Assembly (NCBI GenBank): GCA_029246385.1
Contig: JAQWNG010000021.1
Coordinates: 1 to 55,207 of the forward strand
DNA: 55,207 nt
Direction: 5' to 3'
Origin: Halioglobus sp.
GTDB taxonomy: Bacteria; Pseudomonadota; Gammaproteobacteria; Pseudomonadales; Halieaceae
The position numbers and the translations under genes are program-made. Below the pieces are notes generated by a model. It did not search any database and had not been told where the DNA came from. It was given only the letters and a program-made list of their open reading frames with translations. Shown in pieces: positions 9,225 through 17,340 of this stretch. How positions within the stretch are numbered: the first letter of the stretch is position 1; the number at the start of each line of letters is the position of its first letter.

Positions 9225-10025
9225 ATGGACTCTAATAAAATTCGATCAAGCGCCATCAAGACTGGATTGATAGACAGGGTGAGAAGTGCCTGGTGCAACT
9301 CCGCTACTGGGGAATTAGTTCAAGGCGTCTTTCTCAAGCCCGGTATGCAGGTGGTGGATGTTGGCTGCGGCGATGGCGGATACGCAAATTTTTGCGCCAA
9401 AATGGGCTGCAATGTGACCTTCATTGATGTGCAGGAAACTAAAGTTCGAACGCTGGAAAAAAGACTCAAGGGCAAATTCTCAGGAGAAATCAACGGTATC
9501 GTCTCATCGTGCGACCCCATTCCCCTGCCCGACGACTTTGCAGACCTGGTGATTAGCACCGAAGTTCTGGAGCATGTGCAGGATCCTAGCAAAACTCTAA
9601 AAGAAATAGTGCGTATTGGCGGGCCCAAAACTACTTATGTACTAACCGTGCCAGACGCGCGCGGCGAAGACCTTGTCAAAACTGTTGCGCCATCGGCTTA
9701 CTTTCAGGAGCCGAATCACATACACATTTTTACGTCAGATGATTTTGAAAAGCTGGCCGACGATTGCGGACTAGAAATCGTCAGACATGACTACAATTCC
9801 GCCTTTTGGTCTATTTTCTTCCTGCTCAAGTGGGCGACCTCCGAGCCCGATGAAGCTGTTGAAGCGCTCACTGACAATGTCCATCCAGCCACCATTTTAT
9901 GGACGCAGACATGGGACGAGGTCCTAAAGCATCCGAATGGCGATAAAATCCTCGATGCGCTCAACACGGCGCTGCCCAGATCCCAGATGATCGTCGCGCA
10001 AAGGAAAGTAGCCGACCAGAGTTAG
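9225..10025 (+). CDS. class I SAM-dependent methyltransferase
   Basis: Protein of 266 residues with a Methyltransf_11-type fold. Motif I is VVDVGCGDGG (43-52), the acidic end of strand 2 is in FIDVQ (about 67-70), and a typical STEVLEHVQDP segment follows. The GGAG seven bases before the ATG supports the start. The substrate is not evident; proteins with this layout often modify glycans, lipids or quinones. It stands 160 bp before the Dlt-like operon on the same strand, so it may or may not belong to it. Confidence 0.8.
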   Translation: MDSNKIRSSAIKTGLIDRVRSAWCNSATGELVQGVFLKPGMQVVDVGCGDGGYANFCAKMGCNVTFIDVQETKVRTLEKRLKGKFSGEINGIVSSCDPIPLPDDFADLVISTEVLEHVQDPSKTLKEIVRIGGPKTTYVLTVPDARGEDLVKTVAPSAYFQEPNHIHIFTSDDFEKLADDCGLEIVRHDYNSAFWSIFFLLKWATSEPDEAVEALTDNVHPATILWTQTWDEVLKHPNGDKILDALNTALPRSQMIVAQRKVADQS

Positions 10026-10185: not shown

Positions 10186-11370
10186 ATGAAGCACTCTTCA
10201 GAATTCGTCCGCGGCGCCTTCAGCTTCTCAGCTGTCTCTGTGTATGGGACGTTAGTTGTATTCGCGCTCTGCTGGGGCCTGCTTGCCTGGTGGTATGACG
10301 AGGACAACTTACGCGCGGCTGGCAGATCCGTTGTTTTAACCCCTTATGACAAGTACGGACATGCCTCGGCTAAAGCTGCACGATTACAAAATGTACCTGG
10401 AAATGGCCCGCTTGTACTCTATGTAGGTGCGTCTATGGCGGGTGCAGCGGTGTTTAAGCCAGCGTTTTTACATCAGCAACTTATAAAAGAACTTGGGGAA
10501 TTGGACTCGCGGGCAATTTGGGCTGGCGGTTTATCCATCTGGGAAATAGAAGCTATCGCGCAAAATCTGGATCCAAGTCGAGAACGAATTGTGTTGCTTC
10601 CAATGGGCATTGCACGATTTCAGTTAGGACAAGACTCACTCAAAAATATTGCAGACTCAGAACGACTGCTGATCGCAGATAGATCGTATTGGGAAAAAAT
10701 TCTAAACGAAGAGGAAATTTCAGCGCCGGTAACTACCAACATCATGCTTTTTGATAATTACCCTTACTTTGCAAAGCGCAGCACTGGAGTCCTCCAACAA
10801 ATTCTTGGCTATCCCAAGATTCAACCCGGTGGTTGGCGGCCAAAAATAGACGCCAATGTTATGGTTGAACTCAATAAGATGTGGGCTGACCCAAACTATA
10901 TTCCCGATGAAGACGAATCTCGAGCGCGACGTGCAAAGAACAGTGGGGGGTTGAGCACCGCCGATATCCGCGGACTGGCCCATTATGGTGGCCTTGTGAG
11001 GCTCGACGAATACTCCGAGTTCGCTGACGAAGCTGAGGAAATGCTAGTTCGTGTCATTCAGCGTTTAATGCAGGATGGATCGCAAGTAATCATGTTTGAA
11101 ACCCCTTTTGACATAGAGTCGATGACCCGCTTTGAAGGCGCAGAGGCCACCCAGGCTTTCATCAAGGACCTGCATGAGCGATTGGCGCGGATAAGCGAAT
11201 TGACAGGCGCGCCAATCCTCTATACGGGGACTCGTGCAGATCTTCCAACAACAAAATTTTCAGATTGGATTCATGTAGTGGACCACGAGGCAGCAAAGAG
11301 TTTTACGCGCCTATTGGCTAAAGACGTTGCCAAATGGTATGAAAAGTCAAAGACGACAGGAAGACAATGA
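10186..11370 (+). CDS. DltD-like SGNH-fold membrane protein
   Basis: Protein of 394 residues. One N-terminal membrane helix (about 15-36) is followed by a large extracytoplasmic domain. A GxS nucleophile motif is in YVGAS (Ser83), and near the C-terminus a D-x-x-H motif (Asp360, His363), the SGNH/GDSL catalytic arrangement also used by DltD and AlgX/AlgJ. In Gram-positive dlt systems DltD acts on the outer side of the membrane in the last acyl-transfer step. Here the gene stands first in the operon and overlaps the DltX-like gene by 4 bp (ATGA). Overall similarity to DltD is architectural; I cannot claim orthology. The start is the first Met of the frame, with only a poorly spaced AGGA before it. 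Confidence 0.7.
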   Translation: MKHSSEFVRGAFSFSAVSVYGTLVVFALCWGLLAWWYDEDNLRAAGRSVVLTPYDKYGHASAKAARLQNVPGNGPLVLYVGASMAGAAVFKPAFLHQQLIKELGELDSRAIWAGGLSIWEIEAIAQNLDPSRERIVLLPMGIARFQLGQDSLKNIADSERLLIADRSYWEKILNEEEISAPVTTNIMLFDNYPYFAKRSTGVLQQILGYPKIQPGGWRPKIDANVMVELNKMWADPNYIPDEDESRARRAKNSGGLSTADIRGLAHYGGLVRLDEYSEFADEAEEMLVRVIQRLMQDGSQVIMFETPFDIESMTRFEGAEATQAFIKDLHERLARISELTGAPILYTGTRADLPTTKFSDWIHVVDHEAAKSFTRLLAKDVAKWYEKSKTTGRQ

Positions 11371-11519
11371 CCGCAATGACAAAGAAAAATACCAACGTAA
11401 AATTTTATGCAGGAGCGCTAATACAGATGTTGGCAATGGGTTTCCTGCTATTCATTGCGACTGTCGAAATTTTCTCTATGGCATCAGACACGCAAATTTT
11501 CCGCTACCAGGGCTTCTGA
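11367..11519 (+). CDS. DltX-like 50-residue membrane microprotein with C-terminal FxYxxF motif
   Basis: A 50-codon gene too short for ordinary gene callers. It overlaps the DltD-like stop by ATGA and has AGGA 5 nt before its ATG. The product has a basic N-terminus (MTAMTKKNTNVK), one membrane helix (about 14-36) and ends exactly in FRYQGF. DltX of Gram-positive dlt operons is a protein of about 50 residues with one helix and a C-terminal FxYxxF motif whose Tyr is proposed to carry the acyl group between DltB and DltD. Size, topology, motif and its place directly before the MBOAT gene all agree. The N-terminus would be cytoplasmic and the motif (Tyr47) outside, close to the MBOAT active site. 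Confidence 0.85.
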   Translation: MTAMTKKNTNVKFYAGALIQMLAMGFLLFIATVEIFSMASDTQIFRYQGF

Positions 11520-11529
11520 GGAGCAGGCT

Positions 11530-12702
11530 TTGATAAATACCTGGGAATTTTGGGCAACTCTTGCCGCCGCGGTCATAGTCTACTGGGGCCTTCCAGCGAA
11601 GATGCGGCTTAGCTTTCTTGCTCTCGCATCGGGCGCCTATATCAGCTACCTCGACGTATCGTCTGCGGTAATTTTATTATTGGGAAGTTTGTTTATCAAA
11701 TGGATGTTCGACCGTAACCTTTTGCTAAACAAAAAACCTTCGCTGCTGAAATGGGTGGTTGTTCTCCTAATATTTGGTCTAGCTGGCTTCAAAGCATTGC
11801 CCAATCTTCTTGACGATGTGTTTCAAAATAGCATTCTTGCGGGGGTTGCAGTTCCTCTGGGGATTAGCTATTACATCTTTAAACTTATTCACTACGCAGT
11901 GGAGCGCAACCGTGGAAATTTAGGCGAGGTGGGAAATGCAGAATTTCTGTGCTGGCTATTTTTATTTCCCATGTTCACAGCAGGCCCAATAGAGCCATTG
12001 GATCACTTCAAAAAATCGCGCAGCGAAAATTTCGATCACGCCGCAATACTTGAGGGAATTGGCAGAATAATTCAGGGCATGGTAAAAAAATTCGTTCTTG
12101 TAGGAATTTTACTGCAGCAAATATTGATGGATGATCAGACGGTAATGTCTGTACATCAGAATCTTAGCGCAATGACTGTGTACGAATTATGGATATTCTT
12201 TGTCCTGATTTTTTTTACTTTCTATCTGGAATTTTCTGCGTATTCTGATATTGCAATTGGCGGCTGCAGATTATTCGGAATCAGAATCATAGAGAACTTC
12301 AACTGGCCAATCGTTGCCAAGAACATGTCCGAGTTCTGGAAGCGCTGGCATATGTCGTTGTCCGGGTGGTGTCAACGCTATATTTATATGCCCGTGATTG
12401 CCCGCACTAGAAACCCCTATTACGCTATATTTTTCACTTTTCTCACGATTGGTATGTGGCATGCAGTAGATTTGAACTACCTGGCTTGGGGTCTGTTTCA
12501 CGGCGCAGGAGTCGCGACAGCGGTTACATTTGGGCGAATAAAGAGAAAACTAGGCTGGATGAGAAGGGAGAAAGGCATATTTGTCTACTGGGGAATGCCC
12601 CTGACGCTAGCATACGTCAGTTTCGGTGGAGTGTTCAGCAGCACACAAGGCCAAGGCATTGGTGTGGCACTCGATTTTGCAAAAAAACTGCTGGGACTGT
12701 AA
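11530..12702 (+). CDS. DltB-like MBOAT O-acyltransferase
   Basis: Polytopic membrane protein of 390 residues in the MBOAT family. The conserved region reads EFWKRWHMSLSGW (His274) and GMWHAVDLNYLAW (His311), the two conserved His positions of DltB/AlgI-type enzymes; a further HG follows at 324. In the Dlt system DltB takes the aminoacyl group from the charged carrier on the cytoplasmic side and passes it through the membrane to DltX. The start is set at TTG 11530, where AGGAG stands 6 nt upstream, 10 bp after the DltX-like stop. A longer frame from ATG 11455 would overlap the microprotein gene and adds a non-membrane N-terminus. No AlgI-like partner set for alginate is present. Confidence 0.9.
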   Translation: MINTWEFWATLAAAVIVYWGLPAKMRLSFLALASGAYISYLDVSSAVILLLGSLFIKWMFDRNLLLNKKPSLLKWVVVLLIFGLAGFKALPNLLDDVFQNSILAGVAVPLGISYYIFKLIHYAVERNRGNLGEVGNAEFLCWLFLFPMFTAGPIEPLDHFKKSRSENFDHAAILEGIGRIIQGMVKKFVLVGILLQQILMDDQTVMSVHQNLSAMTVYELWIFFVLIFFTFYLEFSAYSDIAIGGCRLFGIRIIENFNWPIVAKNMSEFWKRWHMSLSGWCQRYIYMPVIARTRNPYYAIFFTFLTIGMWHAVDLNYLAWGLFHGAGVATAVTFGRIKRKLGWMRREKGIFVYWGMPLTLAYVSFGGVFSSTQGQGIGVALDFAKKLLGL

Positions 12703-12792: not shown

Positions 12793-14364
12793 ATGCAAGA
12801 AACACTCATTTCTGGATTTATTCGCTCCGCTCACGCCCACGGCGATCAGATCGCAGTCTCGGCGCCATCGGGCACGTACACCTATAAGGAGTTATATCGG
12901 CGCGCCAGTGCGATTGCTGCATCACTATCCGAATTCAAAATGGCAGACTCTGGGCTAGTGCCAATACTGGTCGAACGAGATCTTTCTGCCTTCGTAGGAA
13001 TCCTCGGTATTTTATTGAGCGGTAATGGTTATGTGCCCATCAGTGGCTCATTCCCGCCGAGTCGCATAGCGACCATAATTTCCGATATCGGCGCGGCCAC
13101 CCTGCTGACGGATTCTGCATCACTGCCACTTGCGCTTGAAGCCACCTCGAGTTGCGATAGTATTGCCAGAATATTAATGCTCGACGCTGTGAATCTGGAA
13201 TCCTCTGCCGACAATCCGGATGTAGATCTTGTGTTGCCGCTCGAGGCTTCAGATAACTGGATGCCTTTAGATGTGTCACCCGATGCGCTGGCCTACGTTT
13301 TTTATACTTCTGGCAGTACAGGCACGCCCAAGGGCGTAAAAATCACTCATAACAACATCGTTCGTTACATTAATTACATGTCCGCGCGCTATGAGCTTAC
13401 TTGCAGTGATCGAATCCTCCAGATTACTGATCTAACTTTTGATCTTTCTGTGTTCGAACAGTTCATGGCCTGGAAAGCCGGCTGCCGATTATATGTTCCC
13501 TCCTCTAGGGATAAACTCGGCGTCGCAAAATTTATAAAAGACAGTAAAATTACCACCTCACTACTGACCCCGTCGATGGCTTTACTAATGCGCAAATTAC
13601 GTCAACTTGAGCCGGGGGCATTTCCCGATCTCCTCGTCAGTCTATTTTGTGGCGAGGCGTTACATTGTGACGTTGCCGAGGCCTGGGCTGAGGCCGCTCC
13701 AAAATCTATCGTAGAAAATATCTACGGCCCGACTGAGTTGGTTGTCAGCTGCATGATTCATCGGTGGGACAGCTTATACTCTAAGAAAATTTCCATAAAT
13801 AACGTTGTGCCGATTGGCCAACCCCATGAAGATATAGATGCGCTAATTATTGATGAAGCTGGCAATATATTGCCCGCTGGTGAACTGGGCGAGTTGCTGA
13901 TTTCTGGCCCGCAAACTGAAGCTCTGGGTTATTGGCGTAACGAAGAAAAGACCCGCGAGGTACTCGTTGAAATTCCCGGCTACAATTTTCCATGCTATAA
14001 AACCGGTGATTTGGCCATTCAGAATCCGCAAGATGGCCTGTTTAACTGGGTGGGTCGCGCGGACCAGCAAATTAAATACATGGGGCATCGCATAGAGCTT
14101 GGGGATATTGAAGCCGCGATACGGCGATGTTTTGACTGTCAGCAGGCTGCGATTGTTCCGTGGCCCATTGTCGATGGACAAATCATGGGGTTGGTAGCAT
14201 TTGTGGAGGCCGACATCGATATTGCCAATGAGAGATTTGTGGCCACACTATCAAAAGAGATCCCAGACTACATGGTGCCCAAAAAAGTTATTATTCTGGA
14301 TCGTTTTCCAGTCAATACCAGTGGTAAGGTAGATCGACCGAAACTAAAATCGCAATTGGTGTAA
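12793..14364 (+). CDS. DltA-like amino-acid adenylating enzyme (D-alanine--carrier ligase-like)
   Basis: Stand-alone adenylation enzyme of 523 residues (DltA is usually about 505). Visible core motifs are A3 YTSGSTGTPKG (171-181), A4 FDLSVF with the amino-group-binding Asp217, A5 NIYGPTE (309-315), A7 YKTGD (402-406), A8 GRADQQIKYMGHR (421-433) and A10 with the catalytic Lys512 in SGKVDR. The segment FCGE (Cys286) corresponds to the DltA Cys that favours D-Ala over L-Ala. The reaction is ATP-dependent activation of an amino acid and its loading on the phosphopantetheine arm of a carrier, here the next gene, 5 bp downstream. D-alanine is the best guess; another small amino acid is possible. 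Confidence 0.87.
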   Translation: MQETLISGFIRSAHAHGDQIAVSAPSGTYTYKELYRRASAIAASLSEFKMADSGLVPILVERDLSAFVGILGILLSGNGYVPISGSFPPSRIATIISDIGAATLLTDSASLPLALEATSSCDSIARILMLDAVNLESSADNPDVDLVLPLEASDNWMPLDVSPDALAYVFYTSGSTGTPKGVKITHNNIVRYINYMSARYELTCSDRILQITDLTFDLSVFEQFMAWKAGCRLYVPSSRDKLGVAKFIKDSKITTSLLTPSMALLMRKLRQLEPGAFPDLLVSLFCGEALHCDVAEAWAEAAPKSIVENIYGPTELVVSCMIHRWDSLYSKKISINNVVPIGQPHEDIDALIIDEAGNILPAGELGELLISGPQTEALGYWRNEEKTREVLVEIPGYNFPCYKTGDLAIQNPQDGLFNWVGRADQQIKYMGHRIELGDIEAAIRRCFDCQQAAIVPWPIVDGQIMGLVAFVEADIDIANERFVATLSKEIPDYMVPKKVIILDRFPVNTSGKVDRPKLKSQLV

Positions 14365-14369
14365 GTATA

Positions 14370-14603
14370 GTGATTACTAAAGCAAAGATTCTAGAGTTTA
14401 TTATAGAGAACGGCGGCTCAACAGATCGTGTTGAAGATGATACGCCGTTGTTTTCCTCCAGCCTTCTTGATTCCTTCACAATGGTCTCTTTAATCATGGT
14501 CATTGAGTCGGAAGCGGATATTACCATTCCGCCAGAGGATATCACGCTCGACAATCTCGACTCCATTAACGCCATTTTAGCGTACTGCGAAAAAAGCACT
14601 TAA
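14370..14603 (+). CDS. DltC-like acyl/aminoacyl carrier protein
   Basis: Acidic four-helix carrier protein of 77 residues with the phosphopantetheine site in SLLDSFTMV (Ser in DSF). The LLDSF form is the one seen in DltC rather than the DSL/DSM of fatty-acid ACPs and most peptidyl carriers. It starts at GTG 5 bp after the ligase and is followed by the sulfotransferase after 4 bp. It would carry the activated amino acid as a thioester to the MBOAT enzyme. A phosphopantetheinyl transferase is not in the window. Confidence 0.88.
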   Translation: MITKAKILEFIIENGGSTDRVEDDTPLFSSSLLDSFTMVSLIMVIESEADITIPPEDITLDNLDSINAILAYCEKST

Positions 14604-14607
14604 CTCT

Positions 14608-15537
14608 ATGAGCCAATCTGATCGCGGAATACTGCTACTGGGCTGCCCAAGATCTGGAACAACCCTACTGCGCAGACTTTTGGGAAATCACAGCAGCATA
14701 GCCAGTCCCGGAGAAACAGGCCTTTTTCGAGGTGCAGCCAATTTCCTAAAAAAAGATACCACCGGCGTCGGTGTCGAGCTCGGCGTATTAAGCGGCCTCG
14801 GGCATATTGGCGTTAACGAAAATCAAATAAAATCTCGCCTCATCGACTTTGTGTTTGCTTTTTTGGACGAATACACACAGAAAGCGGGCAAAAAGCGCTG
14901 GCTAGAGAAGGATGCCTTTAATGCATTTAGTCTCCCGGAGATTGAAGACATATTCGCAGATAGGGTACGCTATATTTGTCTGGTAAGGCACGGTCTTGAC
15001 GTAGCAGTGAGTCTCGACGAGTTCAGCCAGAAAAGCCGCAGTTACGTTTCAGAGCTTCACAATTATATCCAGCGCTCGGCAAACCCGCTCGAAGCTTTTG
15101 CAACTGCATGGGTAGATGCCTCTTCGAACTTGCGCAATCTTTTGCAAAGCCAGGGTGATAACGCGATTTTGGTTAAGTACGAGGATCTGGTCGCAGATCC
15201 CGATGCTGAGCTTGAGCGTATCTTGCATTTTTTGAATGAGCCCGCCGAAGACGGTATGATTGAAAATGCGCTCAGTGACTCCGAATCAATCGGTCTTAGC
15301 GACTGGAAATCTTATGCGCGAGGGTCCATTGACACCGAGAGTATCGGTAGGTGGTCCTCTCTGCCTCCCTACACAATTGCTAGGCTTGCAAGCATCGCAA
15401 ATGAGACACTTCAGGTCTTTGGTTATGATGAGATCGGCGACGAATGGAACGAATCTCCAGAGCTGGCGCGTCGACGTTACGAAATTGGGCTGGCATTGAA
15501 TCTTGCGAAGAGCCAAGGGAAAAATCGGGACGCTTGA
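14608..15537 (+). CDS. PAPS-dependent sulfotransferase
   Basis: Protein of 309 residues with the 5'-phosphosulfate-binding loop LGCPRSGTTL (11-20) and the 3'-phosphate-binding stretch CLVRHGLDVAVS (124-135, Arg127 and Ser135), as in the Sulfotransfer_1/3 family. It transfers sulfate from PAPS, normally in the cytoplasm, to a hydroxyl or amine of a glycan, lipid or peptide. It follows the carrier gene after 4 bp, so it is almost surely cotranscribed with the Dlt-like genes. Classical dlt operons have no such gene. It may modify the same envelope polymer that is aminoacylated, or a precursor of it; that is inference. Confidence 0.88.
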   Translation: MSQSDRGILLLGCPRSGTTLLRRLLGNHSSIASPGETGLFRGAANFLKKDTTGVGVELGVLSGLGHIGVNENQIKSRLIDFVFAFLDEYTQKAGKKRWLEKDAFNAFSLPEIEDIFADRVRYICLVRHGLDVAVSLDEFSQKSRSYVSELHNYIQRSANPLEAFATAWVDASSNLRNLLQSQGDNAILVKYEDLVADPDAELERILHFLNEPAEDGMIENALSDSESIGLSDWKSYARGSIDTESIGRWSSLPPYTIARLASIANETLQVFGYDEIGDEWNESPELARRRYEIGLALNLAKSQGKNRDA

Positions 15538-15738: not shown

Positions 15739-17340
15739 CTAGCCTTCCTCCGTCACGAGCGGCGCGCGTTCCACTTGAGAATTTGACTGCAGGAGTCGTG
15801 GAAGCCGAGGGTCATTTAAATCCAGGCGATACATTATCTGATTGTAGTCGTAGCGAGGGGTTGACTCGTTATTGCCAGAAAGCCAGCTCGAATAGGTACC
15901 CTCAAAATAAAGATAACGCCCGTTGGCAAAATACGGATGCTGTTTTACATTATAAAAAGAGTAACTATTATGTGTGACGATTTTTCGTGCGGCTGACCAA
16001 GGACCCACCGGACTCAGGGCCTCAGCGTACCAGACCTCACCCAGTAAACTGCGGCCAAATAATTGGCCGAAAATAAGTATCCAGCGGTTGCGGTGCTGAT
16101 TCCAGGCAACGCTGCCGTTATGCGGGGTGATCTGATCACCGGTTTTACTATCAACTAACCTCCAGCGTTGTTCTTCTGGTTTCACTAATCCCTTTTCTAT
16201 CAGCGTACGCCAACGTTTTTCGGTTATAAGGTCAGTATCCGCCTTCCAGGAACAGACTAGTTGGCCGCGCTGGTTCCGTTCCAGTGGGGGGGTATCATCC
16301 CGCCATCGACTACCCGCTTTTAGACATGTAAAAGCCTCGTAGCGTTTTGAATCTAGAATATGTTCCTTTGCTGCGCGCACGCGCACGTCGGGAAAAGTGC
16401 GGCCGAAATAAAACCAATCTTGGTCAGCGTGCCTAATTTTGAGGGTTTGGCCGCGCGGATACAGCGGCGTATTGAGAGGAAATTCGACCCGCTTTTCAAA
16501 TATTTCCCGTTCGTCGTTCCAGACGGCGATTCCCTGCTCGAGTTTTGTCTCCACATTTTCTACCCGAGAATAATACGTGAACATTTGCTCTTGCCCGTCT
16601 TCCTCGAAAACCATGAGACCAGAAATCCATACGGGACCAGCACCCTCAATAGGGCACATGCCACGTGCATTGCCGTCACTATCGACAAAGTAGGTCAACT
16701 GAATGCTGTCGTCAGCAATGTTATTCCCCGCTTGAGGCAGCCTCGAAACTGCACCGGAGACCTCGAAATTACCCAGCGGACCGTCCGCTCGGCGGGTGTC
16801 GCCCCAGAACCAGTATAGCTGCCCCTTGTAAATCGCATTAACCACCGAATCTTGGCCAAAAACGCCCCCCGAGAGCTCGCCGGAATGGCCCAGCGCAGGC
16901 GCAAGTCCTACCAACCGAGAGTCATGATAGATACCCTCTCCAGTCACTCGGTAGAGACGCTCTGCGATATTTATCCGCCGCAAAGGAACGACTTCGATCT
17001 CGCCGGCAGTCGGTTTAACTCGAATGCCTTGAAAGCCACTCAGCTCCTCCTGCAATTCATAGCCATGACTGTAAACAGAGAAGTAAAGGGATTCCGCATC
17101 CAGATCACCCGCACGCATAGCTATAAGCCCGGCGCTGTCACTAACATAGCTGACGGAGTTGGTGGACTTGATCTCCACCAGAGGAATACCTCGTCCCGTT
17201 TGATCATCGATAAAGTAAATTTTAAAATAACCTGGCTGAAAACTAGCACAGGCTGTCAGCAATAAAATGAGCCATATCAGCACCAAACGAAAAACCGTAT
17301 GCTTCAAACCTATCATTGCTAAATGGATAAACTTGGCCAT
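15739..17340 (-). CDS. lipoprotein with probable beta-propeller (DUF4185-like) domain
   Basis: Protein of 533 residues with a lipoprotein signal ending in LLTAC (Cys31). Residues 40-125 look like a small beta domain. The rest has repeated W/Y-rich blades with motifs such as YWFWGDTR, WFYFGRTFP, GSVAWNQHRNRW and YFEGTYS, typical of five-bladed propeller proteins of the DUF4185/GH43-like type. It would sit in the outer membrane or periplasm. A glycan-binding or -cleaving role is possible, but I see no clear catalytic triad. It converges on the sulfotransferase gene, with about 200 bp between the stops. Confidence 0.6.
   Translation of the reverse strand: MAKFIHLAMIGLKHTVFRLVLIWLILLLTACASFQPGYFKIYFIDDQTGRGIPLVEIKSTNSVSYVSDSAGLIAMRAGDLDAESLYFSVYSHGYELQEELSGFQGIRVKPTAGEIEVVPLRRINIAERLYRVTGEGIYHDSRLVGLAPALGHSGELSGGVFGQDSVVNAIYKGQLYWFWGDTRRADGPLGNFEVSGAVSRLPQAGNNIADDSIQLTYFVDSDGNARGMCPIEGAGPVWISGLMVFEEDGQEQMFTYYSRVENVETKLEQGIAVWNDEREIFEKRVEFPLNTPLYPRGQTLKIRHADQDWFYFGRTFPDVRVRAAKEHILDSKRYEAFTCLKAGSRWRDDTPPLERNQRGQLVCSWKADTDLITEKRWRTLIEKGLVKPEEQRWRLVDSKTGDQITPHNGSVAWNQHRNRWILIFGQLFGRSLLGEVWYAEALSPVGPWSAARKIVTHNSYSFYNVKQHPYFANGRYLYFEGTYSSWLSGNNESTPRYDYNQIMYRLDLNDPRLPRLLQSNSQVERAPLVTEEG

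Follow-up and report, generated by a model that had tools for sequence, protein, structure and literature searches.

A DltX-like microprotein gene beside a carrier-linked MBOAT in Halioglobus, and its counterparts in other bacteria

Within the 55,207-nucleotide stretch of Halioglobus sp. DNA analyzed here (the window), an open reading frame of 50 codons sits between a gene for an SGNH protein and one for an MBOAT, raising the question of whether so short a frame is a gene at all and, if it is, whether its product could act as the acyl shuttle of a Dlt-like system in a Gram-negative bacterium. In the Dlt pathway, DltB loads D-Ala from DltC onto a tyrosine of DltX, from which it passes to DltD (PMC12148441). 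The same paper, from 2025, showed the relay in Gram-negatives, where PatA transfers acetyl to a Tyr in the motif at its own C-terminus, and in it other MBOAT/SGNH pathways are stated to work without a carrier and a DltX-like microprotein. A survey from 2017 recorded dltX in 809 species, of which 805 were Firmicutes, and noted dlt genes in a few Gram-negatives, with a DltX of the same topology and no sequence similarity (PMC5541007). In Dickeya, a dltB mutant survives polymyxin less well, and the same report describes dltBAC and dltD/pbpG, the term dltX being absent from its main text (PMC3544676). The initial annotation of the window had taken the motif beside a Gram-negative MBOAT to suggest that the relay is a general mechanism; it was anticipated in this by the published work on PatA (PMC12148441) and by the mention of a Gram-negative DltX in 2017 (PMC5541007).

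The frame belongs to a run of genes ordered SGNH protein, microprotein, MBOAT, adenylation enzyme, carrier, and sulfotransferase (D-X-B-A-C), with a methyltransferase gene on the 5′ side:

9225..10025 (+), SAM methyltransferase (PF13489, 1.3e-20; homologue in the G030 cluster, 36%)
10186..11370 (+), DltD-like SGNH protein (N-terminal helix; Ser83 in GAS, Asp360 and His363 in DWIH)
11367..11519 (+), DltX-like microprotein (50 aa; one predicted helix, aa 17-33; proposed acyl carrier Tyr47)
11499..11516 (+), putative C-terminal acyl-shuttle motif FRYQGF, at the exact C-terminus of the microprotein
11530..12702 (+), DltB-like MBOAT (390 aa, TTG start; PF03062, 4.8e-23)
12793..14364 (+), DltA-like amino-acid adenylation enzyme (PF00501, 1e-62)
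14370..14603 (+), DltC-like carrier protein (GTG start; PF00550, 3.9e-6)
14608..15537 (+), sulfotransferase (PF13469, 1.2e-25; homologues in the G030, G318, and L049 clusters)

The 50-residue translation of the ORF at 11367-11519 (+) is MTAMTKKNTNVKFYAGALIQMLAMGFLLFIATVEIFSMASDTQIFRYQGF. The ORF begins at an ATGA in which its start codon and the stop codon of 10186-11370 overlap, AGGAAG lies immediately 5′ of the start, and a 10-base gap separates its stop from the MBOAT start (TTG at 11530), which is preceded by GAGGAG; an alternative start codon at 11376 is possible. The product has a single hydrophobic segment, which spans residues 17-33 with a mean Kyte-Doolittle value of 2.27 and is flanked by a charge of +3 on the N-terminal side and −1 on the C-terminal side, fitting an N-in/C-out topology by hydropathy and charge only, and Tyr47 occupies position −4 from the C-terminus. 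The features that had first drawn attention to this ORF (the ATGA overlap, a ribosome binding site, one predicted helix, and a C-terminal FRYQGF) were thus all confirmed.

A frame this short might have arisen by chance and do nothing, or it might be an artifact of the motif search. Relaxed matches do arise randomly, at a background of 0.012 per 300-nt interval across the loci of the census described below, and under a looser ORF definition the window contains three, versus a Markov mean of 0.55. Under the strict definition, however, the 55-kb window holds no other 35- to 75-codon, one-helix ORF ending in FxYxxF on either strand, and none occurred in 40 first-order Markov windows. Moreover, the ORF is conserved, along with its ATGA overlap, across two phyla, and substitutions in it are of coding type. 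Between related microproteins, dN/dS is 0.25 for one pair (L036/L037, for which the neutral test on that pair alone is weak, P 0.045) and 0.20 for another (L040/L042, dS 1.8), between the microproteins of the window and of its relative G030, synonymous sites are saturated and dN is 0.41, the differences being distributed over codon positions as 20, 11, and 32. At the level of sequence, these patterns indicate coding. The initial annotation had let the status of the frame hang on conservation of the motif and on its synonymous/nonsynonymous pattern, and both came out in its favor, with the Tyr kept in 23 of 23 aligned microproteins and dN/dS values of 0.20 to 0.25. Given the conservation, the substitution pattern, and the Markov comparison, we rejected the chance ORF as a reading that is barely credible; the gene is real and, judging from its sequence, its product is probably functional, a variant of the acyl shuttle of Dlt that acts in the manner of DltX.

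Likeness to Gram-positive DltX (PF12459) is evident in size (about 50 aa), the one helix, and a C-terminal FxYxxF hexapeptide, to which FRYQGF conforms (the Bacillus thuringiensis DltX motif is FIYNEF; PMC5541007), and, like DltX, the microprotein is encoded with counterparts of dltA, dltB, dltC, and dltD. Unlike DltX, the window microprotein has no match to PF12459, nor to any other Pfam family, at E ≤ 10, and the last motif residue varies among its relatives. The DltX gene precedes dltA, whereas here the microprotein is encoded between SGNH protein and MBOAT and, in the other loci described below, after the MBOAT gene. A search of the genome itself with PF12459 was likewise negative (0 of 1), with Bacillus subtilis and Lactococcus lactis controls positive. 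Because the profile was applied and returned no match, we do not assign the microprotein to PF12459.

The neighboring proteins show the same combination of kinship and distance. Against the DltB equivalog TIGR04091, the MBOAT scores 148.7 bits, below the curated cut-off of 375; its sequence-profile match in the PDB is DltB (8jem/6bug), and the top three Foldseek matches of its predicted fold are also DltB (8jem/6bug; probability 1.00, TM about 0.8). All 10 homologues compared retain His274 and His311, both of which align with DltB histidines. The MBOAT ends in FAKKLLGL and so does not carry the C-terminal FxYxxF that marks the fused shuttle of PatA/AlgI-type proteins. Similarly, the adenylation enzyme scores 276.9 bits with the DltA model PRK04813 (cut-off, 476), and the carrier matches the DltC model PRK05087 at 1.9e-9, below the cut-off; LLDSF in the latter is likely, from its sequence, to be the phosphopantetheine site. 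Ser83, Asp360, and His363 (DxxH) of the SGNH protein are invariant in 5 of 5 homologues, and this gene product matches no Pfam or NCBIfam model at E ≤ 0.1. Its predicted model, of modest confidence (pLDDT 68.8), has DltD 7dxm as best Foldseek match (E 2.6e-5, TM 0.34 to 0.35), with TM-scores to DltD structures that are low overall (0.34 to 0.40). Searching the PDB with a profile built from the SGNH alignment gave two designed proteins only, which were rejected as relatives. By the curated models, identity with canonical DltX or DltB was rejected as well. Canonical DltB was found in 0 of 398 genomes of the phylum (E ≤ 1e-60), and among 350 genomes of the class 18 match at E ≤ 1e-50, none above the cut-off; all 21 places of these class-level matches lie inside open frames of 464 to 582 aa.

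Close relatives of the microprotein are rare. Of 96 relatives searched, two contain it (its own genome and G030), and none of 17 other genomes of the same genus does; because it is so confined, the operon genes were probably acquired. The G030 homologue is 48% identical over microprotein residues 4-50 and keeps FRYQGF, and that genome retains genes for the methyltransferase, adenylation enzyme, carrier, sulfotransferase, MBOAT, microprotein, and SGNH protein, arranged in two converging units. The cluster adjoins Wzm/Wzt-type export genes and a glycosyltransferase; these export genes suggest a polysaccharide acceptor. The SGNH-microprotein-MBOAT order is kept in G030, in G318 (L120/L154), and in two Phycisphaeraceae (L040 and L042), with adenylation and carrier genes in view at L040, L042, and G318. 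The ATGA overlap is present in four of the five window-type loci (the window, L040, L042, and L120), that in G030 being an overlap of 14 nt. Sulfotransferase identities by tblastn are 54% (L035), 35% (L049), and 40% (L154, in G318). When the 398 genomes of the phylum were searched with a microprotein profile, three places matched at E < 1e-10 (in G270, the genome itself, and G318); the next-best match was at E 0.0017, and 244 genomes matched at E ≤ 1. These weak matches, among which the frames of nine loci were examined, were taken as noise. One match at E 0.0067 (G270:C7:42396-42458, L195) falls within the C-terminal portion of a frame of 466 codons that holds a fused MBOAT, which is, in sequence terms, consistent with equivalence of the microprotein and the fused MBOAT tail. 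A plasmid search returned six records, none with 80% query coverage. On the minus strand, convergent with the operon of the window, 15739-17340 encodes a 533-residue protein with a sub-threshold match to DUF4185.

A second arrangement, in which the microprotein gene lies 3′ of the MBOAT gene, occurs in 18 loci; in the 17 measured, it starts between 20 bases before and 30 bases after the MBOAT stop, and most of these loci have the adenylation enzyme and carrier fused in one protein. We aligned 23 microproteins (alignment A2), five of the upstream and 18 of the downstream type, with the L051 row lacking its first Met. The Tyr is invariant (23/23) and is the one invariant residue; it stands at position −4 in 22, and the Phe two residues before it is also kept in 22. 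The last motif residue may be F, W, L, I, M, Q, or N, and L069 ends IIYWDKP. A charge bias for N-in topology is seen in 18 of the 23. These genes, 37 to 54 codons long, derive from seven phyla: Pseudomonadota, Planctomycetota, Bacteroidota, Nitrospirota, Thermodesulfobacteriota, Bacillota, and, as assigned in the record, Riflebacteria. Only one of the 23 microproteins reaches PF12459 (E 0.054), and none of their matches to other Pfam or NCBIfam models is credible, the best being EMP24_GP25L (one member, E 0.0007) and lmo0937_fam_TM (one member, 0.01), both taken as chance. Being short and essentially unmatched by these models, such genes are easily overlooked or left unnamed.

How widely the microprotein accompanies MBOATs was assessed in a census of 84 loci, comprising the best 80 of 580 relatives plus four further loci; the query alignment for the 80-locus search (A1) included five MBOATs already known beside microproteins, and one locus, L045, lies on the same contig as L036. 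The initial annotation had predicted both that further microproteins would be found at MBOAT loci and that the microprotein relay is general across them, and the census separates the two. Against the latter, 57 of these 84 MBOATs carry the motif at their own C-terminus (pattern F-x-[YF]-x-x, Phe for Tyr allowed; 56 with Tyr, one, L062, with Phe), and 27 do not. Those with the motif are 430 to 523 aa long, and those without it are mostly 366 to 437 aa. The prediction of further microproteins held within the motif-less set: an adjacent one-helix motif microORF accompanies 18 of the 27 motif-less MBOATs versus 2 of the 57 motif-bearing ones (Fisher P 7e-10), or 19/27 versus 2/57 under a looser helix threshold. 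The two beside fused MBOATs (L087 and L096), which lack a DltA or carrier match, look like chance.

In the same census (best 80 of 580 plus four), a DltA-like gene is in view at 20 of 27 motif-less versus 1 of 57 motif-bearing MBOATs, and a carrier match at 19/27 versus 7/57; all seven carriers near fused MBOATs are more than 1.3 kb from the MBOAT, and six are more than 3 kb away. Where a motif-less MBOAT and a DltA-like gene occur together, 18 of 20 have the microprotein. The exceptions are L046, which is cut at a contig end, and L041, which has DltA-like and carrier genes and no microprotein in view; because the L041 stretch opens inside a second MBOAT, its microprotein may lie outside. In a wider stretch, L120 also has adenylation and carrier genes, adding one case, and L043 has no carrier match and its A-domain on the other strand. 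The microprotein thus goes with the adenylation/carrier branch of MBOATs. Four other loci have MBOATs with neither motif, microprotein, nor DltA-like match in view: short ones at L060 (5596-6840), L081 (4450-5646), and L121 (reverse strand), and one of 555 aa at L122 (766-2433); three of the four directly precede a gene that is SGNH-like by eye. L058 (at a contig end) and L112 appear cut or broken.

Searches at other ranks gave further counts. At the order level, 30 loci were kept, 24 with the fused motif and five with the microprotein (the window, G030, G166, G055, and G027); L010, with neither, ends at most 100 bases from the edge of its contig. Around G318 and G270, MBOAT searches yielded 40 loci, 37 with the fused motif, the rest being re-finds of L120, L121, and L123. 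The Halioglobus genome itself holds both kinds, its second MBOAT ending FLYFNF.

In a quickly built MBOAT tree of 95 rows, with several long branches and canonical DltB not included, 22 microprotein-linked MBOATs fall within one 26-row set (SH-aLRT 98), which also holds four rows with neither microprotein nor fused motif. The fused label requires two changes on this 95-row tree, and the microprotein label requires four because those four rows share its set. The nearest rows to the window MBOAT belong to its own order, to Planctomycetota, and to its own phylum. These placements bear on the idea that the locus is a Firmicute dlt operon received by recent horizontal transfer, its DltX an ordinary one that has drifted beyond the models. 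Consistent with that idea are the absence of the microprotein from all 17 other genomes of the genus and, weakly, the GC content of 0.46 to 0.48 at 10-16 kb of the window, since the region at 2-6 kb is equally low. However, the MBOAT and the counterparts of DltA and DltC fall far below the Dlt equivalog cut-offs, the microprotein does not match DltX, the gene order is D-X-B-A-C, and the closest rows in the 95-row tree are those just named, such that we regard a Firmicute origin as very improbable and a transfer of the operon between Gram-negatives as likely.

Taken as a whole, the locus is very probably a Gram-negative, carrier-fed, Dlt-like acyl-transfer operon whose shuttle is a separate microprotein, which from its sequence looks like the detached end of an MBOAT. 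By analogy, the DltA-like enzyme would activate a small amino acid and load it onto the DltC-like carrier; the MBOAT would then shift the acyl group from the carrier thioester to the microprotein's Tyr47 on the periplasmic side, after which the FRYQGF tail could swing to the SGNH protein, whose Ser83 would hand the group to an envelope or exported glycan. We infer these chemical steps, the topology, and the complex from work on DltX and PatA, and homology supports a relay through an acyl-Tyr on the microprotein. A different role is conceivable, in which the microprotein serves structure or regulation as a subunit that joins MBOAT and SGNH protein, its motif merely docking in the MBOAT funnel while the acyl group passes otherwise. 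The Dlt microprotein does also bridge DltB and DltD (PMC12148441), and a variable last motif residue fits docking as well as it fits chemistry. Yet the Tyr is the one residue invariant in 23 of 23 microproteins; the same motif ends 56 of 84 MBOATs with Tyr and one (L062) with Phe among the best 80 of 580 plus four; and the Tyr of that motif is acetylated in PatA (PMC12148441). We therefore consider docking alone unlikely and retain the acyl-Tyr relay as the preferred reading.

Several described systems resemble this one in part. To our knowledge, AlmG, the transferase of AlmEFG, is not an MBOAT. In the AlmEFG system, which adds glycine to Vibrio cholerae LPS, an adenylation enzyme and a carrier likewise feed an amino acid to a Gram-negative envelope molecule (PMC3783018). 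The dlt genes and DltX reported for Dickeya and Pectobacterium are Gram-negative, as here, and may be related to those of the window (PMC5541007, PMC3544676). The peptidoglycan O-acetyltransferase PatA/PatB and the other fused pairs, those for alginate and cellulose, also combine an MBOAT, an SGNH protein, and an acyl-Tyr in a C-terminal FxYxxF shuttle, but in these pairs the motif is on the MBOAT and the donor is acyl-CoA, as opposed to the carrier and separate microprotein seen here (PMC12148441). A literature search of open-licence papers turned up no account of this class as a whole, of the two arrangements, or of the rule that links it to carriers. The apparently new element is a wide clade of carrier-linked MBOATs whose shuttle is supplied in trans, in two gene arrangements, and is not recognized by the Pfam DltX model. 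More tentatively, and with somewhat more doubt than confidence, we propose a separate clade of short MBOATs, spanning at least seven phyla and fed by adenylation enzyme and carrier, in which the shuttle is in trans with carrier donors and fused with CoA donors, which would attach aminoacyl groups to polysaccharides or lipids of bacteria that lack teichoic acids, and whose microprotein could be exchanged, module-like, between the two arrangements. Such loci are Gram-negative exceptions to the published account of a fused motif acting, outside Dlt, without carrier or microprotein (PMC12148441), and they supply a predictive rule for finding more, namely a short, motif-less MBOAT adjoining an adenylation enzyme and a carrier. 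If the mechanism is true, it would imply that surface glycans of Gram-negatives bear aminoacyl groups not recorded so far, and it would offer a natural two-part system whose shuttle and transferase can be tested separately.

As for the group transferred, D-Ala or Gly would be our guess from profile similarity. Two loci carry a PLP-dependent decarboxylase-like gene (LysA-like by eye; L041 3462-4706 and L154 13907-15163) near the adenylation enzyme and carrier, which might be the source of an unusual amine or amino-acid donor. Among downstream-type loci, L038 and L036 have noted extra genes (L038 790-3594, L036 5357-6793, and L036 10755-12560): each carries a second AMP-binding enzyme, which in L038 is joined to a Trm112-like domain, and a large protein without a Pfam match is also encoded in L036, so these loci may depart from Dlt in the group that they activate or in how it is processed.
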